Shown: positions 3,707 to 30,859 of the stretch, one piece after another
Layout of the letters: each line of letters begins with the position of its first letter
Numbering within the stretch: the first letter of the stretch is position 1
NCBI GenBank assembly: GCA_019314525.1
Contig: JAFCZD010000011.1
Coordinates: 1-39,974 of the forward strand
From: Deltaproteobacteria bacterium
GTDB lineage: Bacteria > Myxococcota_A > Polyangia > GCA-2747355
Length of the DNA: 39,974 nucleotides
Reading direction: 5' to 3'
Made by a program: the position numbers and the translations under genes
Notes under the pieces: generated by a model
What the model was told of the DNA's origin: nothing
Database searches by the model: none
What the model saw: the letters and a program-made list of their open reading frames with translations, nothing else

Positions 3707-4891
3707 TTACGAAGCGACGCGCTCACTCGCGCGACGGCCCCACGCCATGCGGGTCGCATCCCATGCGCCGCAAGAAGAACAGCGCCAGAAAAGGTCGAGG
3801 GTCGCATGCCCACACTGAGCGCAGCGGTAGCCGTGGTCAGCGCTCGAGAGCGCGCCCAAGAGCTCTTCCAGCGCGGCGCGTAAGGCGGAGGGTTCGTCCT
3901 GCTCCAACACCAGGAGAGCGGCCTCGCGGCGAGCGGGCAACAGATGCGGATACTCATCCGTGAGATCGCGAAGATCCACCAGCGCCCCTTGAGGGTCACG
4001 CTTGCCACGAAAACGCGCCACAGCGAGTCGCAAATACACATTGCTTGGATGAGCAGCGCTGGCCTCGTCGAGGATGCCCTGGAGGTCATCGAGCTTCTCC
4101 ATCTCGAAGAGCACTCGCTCGAGCCGCGCGAGGAAGAACGATGCAAGGTCAGGCGCAGCAAGCAACGCTTTGCGCCATGCGTTGACCGCACCAGCCAGCT
4201 TACCCTCGCGGCGGCGCAGCTCACCAAGCACGTGGAGCACGTGAACGCTCTCAGCGTTCGCCGAGATCGCACGTCGAAGGGCGCGCTGAGCTGCCTTCTT
4301 GTCACCTGCCTCAGCGCTCTCATACGCGTGCTGGGCCATGAGGTGCGCCACGTGGGACGAACTGTCACGCTTCTGCAGCTTGCCGAGACGAATTCGACTG
4401 GCGGCAGCGCGCTCCCAAGCACCAACGCGCTCATAGAGCTTGGCGAGGTCCGTCAGCGCTTGCACATGTTTCTTGTCGTGCCCCAATACATATTCCAGGG
4501 CCTTCACGGCGCGACGCGGGAACCCGGCAGCGCGGAAGTCCAAGGCCAACTGGTAGTGCACGCGCAGCTTTGTGCCCTTGTCGACGTCACGGCGCACGAG
4601 GATCGATTGATGCACACGAACCGCGCGCTCGTACTCACAGCGGTTACGAAAGAGCGCGCCAAGGGCAAAGTAGGCCTCAACGGTCTTCGTGTTCTGCTTG
4701 AGGGCTTTTTTTATTTGCTCGATGGCGGCGTCTTCGTGACCCTCGAGCAGCTCTACCAGTCCACGCACGTAGGAGCGACCTTCTCGAGCGGCGCGCTTGA
4801 GGGGGCGACGATCCGGCGCATAATAGCGCCCCAGCAGCGTCCCCACCGCCAATAGAAAGAGGGCAGCACCCACCACCAGCAGCAAATTCAT
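3707..4891 (-). CDS. lapB: LapB (YciM)-like TPR protein with C-terminal rubredoxin-like zinc ribbon
   Basis: N-terminal TM anchor, TPR-like repeats, C-terminal CAQCGHATLDLFWRCSSCGAW. Start overlaps the upstream LapA-like gene by 4 bp. Confidence 0.8.
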   Translation of the reverse strand: MNLLLVVGAALFLLAVGTLLGRYYAPDRRPLKRAAREGRSYVRGLVELLEGHEDAAIEQIKKALKQNTKTVEAYFALGALFRNRCEYERAVRVHQSILVRRDVDKGTKLRVHYQLALDFRAAGFPRRAVKALEYVLGHDKKHVQALTDLAKLYERVGAWERAAASRIRLGKLQKRDSSSHVAHLMAQHAYESAEAGDKKAAQRALRRAISANAESVHVLHVLGELRRREGKLAGAVNAWRKALLAAPDLASFFLARLERVLFEMEKLDDLQGILDEASAAHPSNVYLRLAVARFRGKRDPQGALVDLRDLTDEYPHLLPARREAALLVLEQDEPSALRAALEELLGALSSADHGYRCAQCGHATLDLFWRCSSCGAWDATRMAWGRRASERVAS

Positions 4892-10087: not shown

Positions 10088-10238
10088 GCCTCTTGGCTAC
10101 ACCGGAGCCATCCCCCAGCGCAAGGGAGAACGCTCCATTGCAGGGGCCTGGCCCCAAAGGGGGTGGGTGTCCAACTCCTGCAGACTTCTTCGACGAAAAA
10201 GCCGAATATCAACCCCTTGGACTTTCCCATCCCTGCGC

Positions 10239-10264
10239 TCTCGGTGTACATTGACGCACCGAGA
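10239..10264. promoter_or_regulatory. Inverted repeat, candidate operator
   Basis: TCTCGGTG-TACATTGACG-CACCGAGA, perfect 8-nt arms, 35 bp upstream of the start at 10300. Confidence 0.4.
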
Positions 10265-10299
10265 CGAACGGGCCAACACAAGCCCTATGAGGTACACAC

Positions 10300-27077: not shown

Positions 27078-28322
27078 ATGCAAAATTGGGGTGTTGTGCT
27101 TGCCGCGCTGCTCTGCCTGAACGCAGCTTGCGACAAAAAAGCACCAGAACAAAAAGGCAACCTTCCGAAGAGCGTCGCTCTGCTCAAAAAAATGGTTGGC
27201 GAGGTGAGTCATCGCCCAGCCGGCACGTTGCGTTGGAACGACGCCCGGGCAGGGCTGCCCTTGCAAACGCGCGACGCGATCAAGACAGGTAAGGGGGCAT
27301 CCGCCACTGTGACCTTTGCAGGCGGAAGCAAGCTCGAGGTGGACGCGCAAACCTTGATCATTATCGAGTTGCCTCAGGGCGATCGGGCAAACGCCGTCGT
27401 AGCCGTCGCTCGAGTGGAAAAGGGCACGGTCCGTGGAGTCGTGCATCCTGGCGTCAAACCGCTGGAGATCGTCTCCAAGAGTGGTAAGCGCACGCGCATC
27501 AGCGCTACCACCCGTCCCGTGACCTTCCGCGTGCGCGCCGTTGAGGGCGAGAAACTGCAGGTGGCGGCGCTCAAGGGCGTGGCCAAGGTGCAGGTGGGAG
27601 ACGAGACCGTAGACCTCGAAGCCAACCAGGCGGTGGAGATCGGGACAAAGAACCTCGGCCACAGAGCCCCCCTTCCCCCCTTCCCAGTGTTGCAGAGCCC
27701 CGCTGTGGACGAAAACTTGAGCGGACAAGACGTCAAGCTCTCCTGGCAAGCCGCGCAGCGGACGCTACGCTACCGGGTGCAGCTGGCTCGGTCCCTCGAC
27801 TTTTCGGATCTGATCCTCGACAACCAAACCGAGGCGGCGAGCTGGACCATCGCCCGCCTGGCTGCGGGCCACTACATATGGCGCGTCAGCAGCTTCGACG
27901 CTCGTGGATGGGAAGGCGAGTTTGGCTTCGCTCGGCGCTTCGTCATCGCGAGACCGGATCCGAAACCAACAGCCAGTCAACCGAGCTCGCAGCTGATCGC
28001 GCCTGCCCCTAACGCGATGGTGGTCACCACCGCCAAGCGCATGTCCGTAAACTTTCGCTGGAAACCCGTGGAGGGGGCCACGTCGTATCTCTTGGTCGTG
28101 GCCCGTCGTAGCAACCTCCGCCGGCGTGTCGCCCGCATCAAGGTGAAGAAGGGTACGAGCTATCTCTTGCGGCTCAGGTGGGGCACATTCTATTGGGGTG
28201 TCTACGCGATAGATGACGCAGGCAAAAAGAGCCCTCTCTTCGTCGAGCCTAACAAGCTGAAAATCGGCCGCCGAAGGCCACCCCACGTCGGTGTCCCACG
28301 TACCATCAACCGCTGGAGGTAG
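27078..28322 (+). CDS. FecR-domain-like lipoprotein with FN3-like repeats
   Basis: Lipobox LNAACDKK; FecR-like ...LQTRDAIKTGKGASATVTFAGGSKLEVDAQTLIII...; two W/Y-containing repeats (VKLSWQAAQRTLRYRVQLA, VNFRWKPVEGATSYLLVVA). Confidence 0.78.
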   Translation: MQNWGVVLAALLCLNAACDKKAPEQKGNLPKSVALLKKMVGEVSHRPAGTLRWNDARAGLPLQTRDAIKTGKGASATVTFAGGSKLEVDAQTLIIIELPQGDRANAVVAVARVEKGTVRGVVHPGVKPLEIVSKSGKRTRISATTRPVTFRVRAVEGEKLQVAALKGVAKVQVGDETVDLEANQAVEIGTKNLGHRAPLPPFPVLQSPAVDENLSGQDVKLSWQAAQRTLRYRVQLARSLDFSDLILDNQTEAASWTIARLAAGHYIWRVSSFDARGWEGEFGFARRFVIARPDPKPTASQPSSQLIAPAPNAMVVTTAKRMSVNFRWKPVEGATSYLLVVARRSNLRRRVARIKVKKGTSYLLRLRWGTFYWGVYAIDDAGKKSPLFVEPNKLKIGRRRPPHVGVPRTINRWR

Positions 28323-28325
28323 CAG

Positions 28326-28712
28326 ATGCCCATCCGACAGCACAGAAAAACGCTCATTCTCTTTCTCTTCACCGCGCCGCTCATGGCCTGTACACCCAAA
28401 CCCAAGCCTGTGGTGCCACAGAAGCCGTTGCCAGTTCGCCCATCTGCGCCCATCAAGGTGACAACAGCGAAGATCCTTTTTGTCGATTGCAAGCCGGCTG
28501 ATGCCACAGTTGTCGTCGACGAAGTCCCCCGTGGAAGCATCGATGAGCTGTCCATGCATGGTGGCCTAGAACTCCCCTTCGGCGTCCATCGAATCCTCAT
28601 CCGGCGACGTGGCTACGAAAGCTATCGTGTGGAACTCTCTCTAGAACAGAAGGGTGAGCGAATCTCCATTGAGCTGAAGAAAAAGAAGAAGAGACAAAGG
28701 CGACGACGATGA
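28326..28712 (+). CDS. Small PEGA-like lipoprotein
   Basis: Lipobox LMACTPK; KILFVDCKPADATVVVDEVPRGSI...LPFGVHRILIRRRGYESYRVELSLEQKGERISIELK resembles PEGA. Confidence 0.7.
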   Translation: MPIRQHRKTLILFLFTAPLMACTPKPKPVVPQKPLPVRPSAPIKVTTAKILFVDCKPADATVVVDEVPRGSIDELSMHGGLELPFGVHRILIRRRGYESYRVELSLEQKGERISIELKKKKKRQRRRR

Positions 28713-28741
28713 AACAGCGGTGCGCCTGGCTGGCTTTCCTC

Positions 28742-28901
28742 CTGCTCCTCGCGGTGCCCGCGTCCGCCGAGAAACCGCAGTCCACCGCGACACCCGCCTC
28801 GCCCAATAAACCGCAGCTCATCTGCTCCTCGCGGTGCCCGCGTCCGCCGAGAAACCGCAGTCCACCGCGACACCCGCCTCGCCCAATAAACCGCAGCTCA
28901 T
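28742..28901 (+). repeat. Perfect 80-bp tandem duplication (2 copies)
   Basis: 28742-28821 is identical to 28822-28901 by reading. Confidence 0.95.
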
Positions 28902-29131
28902 TGCCCCCAAGCGCATCGTCCTGGGCTGGATGAAGAAAGTGAGCTTCTCGGTGCCCTCGCTGCCAGGCATTGGCGCAGCCCATGCTTCCACCAACGTCGG
29001 CCGCGTCGACTCCGTCAAGCCGCGGGGCAAGGGCATCCAAGTTCGGGTCAAGCTGCCACGCCGGCGCTCTCCACAAGAGCTGGTGCTGCTGCTCTACCGC
29101 GACCAAGGCCCAGTCTTCGTCTACCGCATTC

Positions 29132-29154
29132 CACTCCAGGGACACTCCAGGGAC
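29132..29154 (+). repeat. 11-bp tandem duplication (actccagggac x2)
   Basis: 29133-29143 is identical to 29144-29154; creates a frame change. Confidence 0.93.
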
Positions 29155-30238
29155 GCACCCAACTCCCCATCCGCACCCGCCCCTTCTCCACCCTCTATCT
29201 GCGCTATGGAAAGCTCGAAGTGGTCAAGAAGATGGGCGGGAAAAGCCGGCGTTATCTGCGCCTCGCCATCCCCCCCGGGGTCAAGCGCATCAATGTCGAG
29301 GTGGTGGACAAGATGGGGCTCAAGACACGACGCAAGATCCGTGTTCGTCGGCCAAGCTACCGACGCTTGGCCCTCGCCGTGCAGCCCACTGAAAACGCAG
29401 CCAGTCATCCCACCTTTCGCGTCACCATTGCCGTCGCCGAGCCGGGGGATGAGAGCATCGAGCTCGAGGTCCTCGGCCCCAATGAAGGCGACCGCCTGGC
29501 GTTGAAGCCCGTTTCCAAAGGCCCAGGCCGCTGGGAGGCCACCTTCGAACCCACCGCAACGGGTGAGCTGCGAATACGTGGCACCCTCAGCGCTGAAGGA
29601 GCGACCCGCGAAGCAAAGGTCTACGCACGATACGCGCCAACAGATGAAGCCCTCCCCTCCCCATCCCCTAGGCCTCGCCTCGCCACTTCTCGAAGGGTGA
29701 CTCCACCACCCAAACATGACCGTGGACCCCACTTCGAGATCGCGCTGGGTGTTGGCTTCTTGCACAACATAGGAGATTTTTTCTCACCGCAGTTCTCTCT
29801 CGCGTGTGGCGCCACTTATGGGCTTGGCTCCGCAGGGAGCCTCGGTTTGCGGCTCGGGGGCAGCGTCGCATGGAAGACGCAGTCCATCAGCACCAGCCTC
29901 GATGGACCAGCAGACCTCGAGGCGGCGAGCTCCCGCACCGTCCTGGCGCCGCTCTTCATCGGTCCGATCTACCGCGGACCACGCTGGCCTGTGATCCCCT
30001 ACGCCAGCGTCAATTTTGTGGTGCAATTCGTACACACTCGCAACACCGCCAGCTACACCCAGGAGCGCGCCACCCTCGACGTCGCGCCAGGTGTCTTGAC
30101 CCAGGTCGGCGCGGAATGGCCCCTGGGCAGAACCTCCCTCTTCTTCCAGGGAGGCTTCCTCTATAGTGAACTGGAGAATCTGGACGTCACCCTGCTCGCT
30201 GGCGGAATCTCCCTTGAGGCTGGTGTGCGCCTGGGGTT

Positions 30239-30859
30239 TTAGATGTACTTCTCGATCTGTTGCACTAGGTCGATACGATCGACGAGGTCGGTGGCGTAGT
30301 CCATGTTGTCCGTCTGGATCACCAACGTCGGCGAGAGCGAGTAGCGTTCGAACCACTCCTCATAATAGCCATTGAGGCGGCGAAGATAGCTGTCAGGCAT
30401 CCCCTTTTCTTCGGGTCGACCGCGGGCCCGGATGCGCCGCTTCAGGGTGCGCAAACTGCCACGCAGGTAGATCATCAGATCTGGCGGTTCGAGGGAACGA
30501 ACCATCGTCTGATAGAGCGATTGGTAGGTCTCGTAATCCCGCTTGCTCATCTTCCGCGAGCGAAAGAGATTGTAGGCGAAGATCTCAGCGTCCTCATAGA
30601 TTGAGCGGTCCTGAATCACCGTCGTCTTGATCCGCTCACGAGCCAAATCCTGGTGAATGCGAAACTTGCTCGAGAGGAAGCGCACCTGGCTGTGAAAGGC
30701 CCAACGGCGCATGTCGCGATAGAAGTCCTTGAGGTAAGGGTTCTGCTCGTTGGGCTCGAAGAACGGCTCGACCTTGAAGTGTTGGCAAAGGAAGCGCACT
30801 AACGAACTCTTGCCCACTCCCATATTCCCCGCGACCGCGATGTACTTGCGCTGGCCCAT
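30239..30859 (-). CDS. Deoxynucleoside kinase-like protein
   Basis: MGQRKYIAVAGNMGVGKSSLVRFL...EPNEQNPYLKDFYRDMRRWAFHSQVRFLSSKFR...VIQDRSIYEDAEIFA. Start set at 30859; the ORF-track start at 31009 overlaps the upstream gene. Confidence 0.88.
   Translation of the reverse strand: MGQRKYIAVAGNMGVGKSSLVRFLCQHFKVEPFFEPNEQNPYLKDFYRDMRRWAFHSQVRFLSSKFRIHQDLARERIKTTVIQDRSIYEDAEIFAYNLFRSRKMSKRDYETYQSLYQTMVRSLEPPDLMIYLRGSLRTLKRRIRARGRPEEKGMPDSYLRRLNGYYEEWFERYSLSPTLVIQTDNMDYATDLVDRIDLVQQIEKYI

Follow-up and report, generated by a model that had tools for sequence, protein, structure and literature searches.

Does the organism from which this DNA came carry a broken surface-protein gene, or was the gene broken only when its sequence was put together? 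The window, that is, the whole stretch of 39,974 nucleotides that was analyzed, contains a perfect 80-bp tandem duplication close to the start of a gene that apparently encodes an outer-membrane protein. An earlier note on this sequence offered three explanations, namely mutation, a reversible switch and an assembly error. Our analysis favors the assembly error, and mutation and a switch are less supported. We estimate a probability of roughly 80% that the 80-bp duplication and a further, shorter duplication in the same gene are artefacts of overlaps that were left unmerged during assembly, and both are most likely absent from the organism.

The two 80-bp copies agree at 80 of 80 bases in the deposited contig. 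When the sequence is compared with itself at period 80, the run of matches is exactly 80 bases, so there is no additional homology beyond the junction between the copies. The longest tandem repeat in a shuffled sample of 840 kb was at most 12 bp, which excludes a chance origin of the 80-base repeat. Replication slippage between pre-existing repeats was considered and rejected, because the junction lacks homology. A second exact tandem duplication, of 11 bp, lies in the same gene, with a run of 12 matching bases and hence 1 nucleotide of additional junction homology. The 39,974-base contig has no other exact tandem duplication with a period of at least 9, and both lie in this one gene.

Each of the duplications shifts the reading frame by +2. 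The earlier note correctly described the perfect 80-bp copy, the resulting frame shift and the upstream ORF that stops at 28933 after 74 amino acids. It also stated that the productive frame resumes in copy 2. A frame does open there, from position 28834, but it fails again at the 11-bp duplication, which the note had missed, and the protein continues in a third frame up to the stop codon at 30240-30242 (Table 1).

Table 1 Features of the duplicated gene in the window
Feature	Position or letters	Strand	Basis
Gene start: ATG and first codons, apparent signal peptide MKQRCAWLAFL...	28709..28741	+	Signal peptide judged by eye
Copy 1 of exact 80-bp tandem duplication	28742..28821	+	Sequence identity
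Copy 2 of exact 80-bp tandem duplication; junction 28821/28822	28822..28901	+	Sequence identity
Truncated 74-aa ORF caused by the duplication	28709..28933	+	ORF reading
321-bp segment between both junctions; candidate for a gap-fill patch or a bridging contig with untrimmed ends	28822..29142	+	Inferred from junction spacing; compare 297 bp at L064 and 290 bp at L105
Copy 1 of exact 11-bp tandem duplication	29132..29142	+	Sequence identity
Copy 2 of exact 11-bp tandem duplication	29143..29153	+	Sequence identity
Rest of gene in third frame: beta strands (low confidence) and linker over ~190 residues, followed by 8-stranded outer-membrane barrel	29145..30242	+	Alignment and structure model
Letters at internal junction 28821/28822	...CAGCTCAT / CTGCTCCT...	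+	
Letters at internal junction 29142/29143	...CCAGGGA / CACTCCA...	+	

The gene has two paralogues in its own genome (L002 and L003), and four partial homologues are present in another genome of the same family (G001). L002 aligns to the translated window in three pieces, with residues 3-28 in frame one, 22-108 in frame two and 104-460 in frame three. Both changes of frame in this alignment coincide with the 80-bp and 11-bp duplications. According to the earlier note, relatives that share the two-copy structure would speak against a recent disruption; however, L002, L003 and the homologues in the same family have one unbroken frame across both places, and no repeat is found there. As judged from these alignments, the ancestral state was a single gene for a beta-barrel protein, which is now split over three frames. 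All three frame segments match the relatives, and their GC content by codon position is coding-like. We saw no older decay, and no further lesion in the remainder of the gene.

The earlier note also proposed a signal peptide and an outer-membrane location for the gene product. Inspection of the N-terminus by eye and a structure model of the C-terminus support this proposal. The C-terminal domain is modeled with high local confidence as an 8-stranded barrel, for which Foldseek ranks Ail, OmpX and OmpA as the top matches. The N-terminal part and the linker are poorly modeled, which lowers the overall mean pLDDT to 61. Although the product thus resembles OmpA/OmpX/Ail-type barrels in its predicted C-terminal domain, it differs from them in having an additional region N-terminal of the barrel. 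It also differs in that no family match was found in Pfam or NCBIfam and that homologues occur in only a few related genomes. A first contig scan of the named genomes found no homologue, and a scan with an alignment of the paralogues found two loci, both in one bin, Myxococcales bacterium HKST-UBA02.

The ATG of the gene (28709) overlaps the stop codon of an upstream PEGA-domain ORF (28326-28712, whose Pfam score is slightly under the cut-off), and there is a FecR-like ORF upstream as well. Reading of the translations by eye shows a similar ORF ahead of the barrel genes at L002 and L003. A neighborhood in which a FecR-like ORF, in some cases with a PEGA ORF, accompanies a member of this barrel family, which has no name in Pfam, recurs in the window (27078-30242) and at L002, L003, L009 and L010. 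These loci come from two genera within a single family that is related to the Myxococcales.

If the duplications were produced by the assembly, similar repeats should occur elsewhere in it irrespective of gene function and more often than in controls. The window is a complete contig (C700) of its genome (G000), an assembly of 7.57 Mb in 1038 contigs that is 83.7% complete and is probably a metagenome bin. We sampled 120 of these contigs, which gave 754 kb of readable sequence once masked short contigs were left out. A fixed filter was applied for exact two-copy tandem repeats that measure 16 bp or more and have a length not divisible by 3; the 16-bp threshold was picked after the list had been seen. 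The filter retained 15 repeats in the 754 kb, and about 11 remain when 4 that lie within or next to repeat arrays or low-complexity sequence are set aside. By contrast, none were found in 921 kb of controls. These comprise 171 kb from a same-family metagenome bin (G001 and HKST-UBA02 sequence), a sample so small that the cleaned rate predicts only ~2.5 repeats and its zero is by itself weak, and 750 kb from finished megaplasmids of other taxa (400 kb of pSymB and 350 kb of the CH34 megaplasmid). Given an equal rate everywhere, the probability that all 15 repeats would fall in the window's own genome is ~6e-6, and for 11 repeats it is ~1.5e-4.

An artefact of this kind should also show junction homology no greater than chance. 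In the window, homology is 0 nucleotides for the 80-bp repeat and 1 for the 11-bp repeat, and it is 0 for 8 of the 15 repeats in the set, where chance predicts 56%. Another three of the 15 have junction homology of 3, 4 and 6 nucleotides, which is slightly above chance, and part of the set may be real. In-frame tandem repeats with periods of 9, 12 and 15 are also numerous in the sample, far over the shuffled expectation, and are probably ordinary coding repeats. A 15-bp repeat array at L020 (G000:C704, 4040-4244) has an abrupt shift of register at position 4154, which is possibly another bad join within a repeat.

Several unrelated genes are affected. A urocanase gene at L106 (G000:C870) contains a 41-bp exact tandem duplication (10198-10281). 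Its first frame covers positions 1-100 of the Urocanase_N domain, the second frame restarts at position 91, and this urocanase is the only one detected in its genome, which is 84% complete. A single PAS-GGDEF gene at L064 (G000:C340) has a 47-bp duplication (2042-2135) followed by an 8-bp duplication (2378-2393), both of which shift the frame. Reducing the repeat in silico to a single copy yields a longer, spanning frame at L060 (position 2128), L128 (position 4471), L105 and L097. Other repeats of the set are intergenic.

The pairing of duplications gives a further indication. Their junctions are spaced 321 bp apart in the window, 297 bp at L064 and 290 bp at L105. About 0.08 partners are expected by chance at 280-330 bp, an interval that was set after the data had been seen, and the L105 pair is within a repeat array. 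A segment of ~300 bp with untrimmed overlap at either end is the expected product of a badly trimmed gap fill.

A direct example of an unmerged overlap is present in the same assembly. At L107 (G000:C880), positions 545-549 are NNNNN and separate two exact 114-bp copies of a sequence that is not a simple repeat. This is an unmerged overlap at a contig join. Chen et al. 2020 (PMC7111523) describe a class of local assembly errors in which overlapping flanks remain unmerged at scaffold joins, and exact duplicate flanks at a join in a draft scaffold are seen directly at L107. The window differs from these cases in that its copies abut without Ns and its contig has zero Ns, so any Ns must have been removed or never inserted. 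We infer that the same joining error, leaving no Ns, gave rise to the repeats in the window. Adjacent contigs would have been joined end to end, or a ~320-bp gap-fill patch placed between two contigs, with the 80-bp and 11-bp overlaps left uncollapsed. The organism would then have one intact gene, encoding an outer-membrane beta-barrel protein of roughly 480 residues. A search of the same genome for an alternative contig with a single copy returned the window as the sole match.

We favor an artefact because similar perfect repeats are numerous in the same draft genome, which also has at least one visible unmerged join, but the duplications could instead be real. They might be recent spontaneous mutations, fixed or common in the strain, that have made the gene a fresh pseudogene with a second hit following the first. 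The copies are identical, as expected of recent events, and another hit would be neutral once the gene was broken. Moreover, one study of pneumococci (PMC4022640) reports frame-disrupting tandem duplications in the capsule gene wchA. However, this scenario requires two independent events within ~320 bp of one gene, as well as a like pair at L064, while the remainder of the window gene has no other lesion, and the excess of repeats extends genome-wide. In addition, Ku-type end joining is one known route to homology-free duplications, and a search of the 84% complete genome found no Ku homologue, which weakens homology-free end joining as a source, with the reservation that the genome is incomplete. 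We consider recent mutation unlikely. Defective repair, or end joining or gap filling by an unusual pathway, could also cause the lineage to make many short tandem duplications independently of homology. Such a process would account for the excess of exact two-copy repeats relative to controls and for junction homology near chance. Yet unmerged overlaps predict the identical pattern, and at L107 such a join can be seen with its Ns. The lack of a detected Ku homologue argues against this process too, and the relative in the same family has no excess, although the sample is small. Of all the readings, we regard this one as the least probable.

A phase-variation switch is also very unlikely. The 80-bp duplication would arise and collapse reversibly, turning the surface protein off and on, and an exact two-copy, out-of-frame repeat in a surface-protein gene is indeed able to collapse precisely. 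There is also precedent, as pneumococcal capsule genes are switched by reversible sequence duplication (Waite et al. 2001 and 2003, cited by PMC4243769 and PMC4022640). The window resembles these cases in that a tandem duplication inside an ORF inactivates a surface-related gene. In pneumococci, reversibility and a switching phenotype are reported, whereas nothing in the window points to reversibility. In the window, loss of one 80-bp copy by itself would leave the protein broken, because the 11-bp duplication remains, and the paralogues do not retain the repeat at the corresponding place. Since equivalent duplications affect unrelated genes, including one for a metabolic enzyme, the urocanase, and a second one occurs in the same gene, a special switch at this gene is weakened. 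The spread of repeats through the genome would also be left unexplained.

It is therefore most likely that the assembly, rather than the organism, is the source of both duplications. It is highly improbable that the lineage truly accumulates short, exact, homology-independent tandem duplications that break or switch genes across its genome, of which the surface-protein gene in the window would carry two. The locus is thus mainly a warning that recent mutations, pseudogenes and phase-variable genes can be mimicked by perfect out-of-frame tandem duplications when a draft genome is derived from a metagenome. Suspect assemblies can be flagged by counting exact two-copy repeats whose length is not divisible by 3, together with N gaps that have overlapping flanks, and this is best done before broken genes are read as biology.
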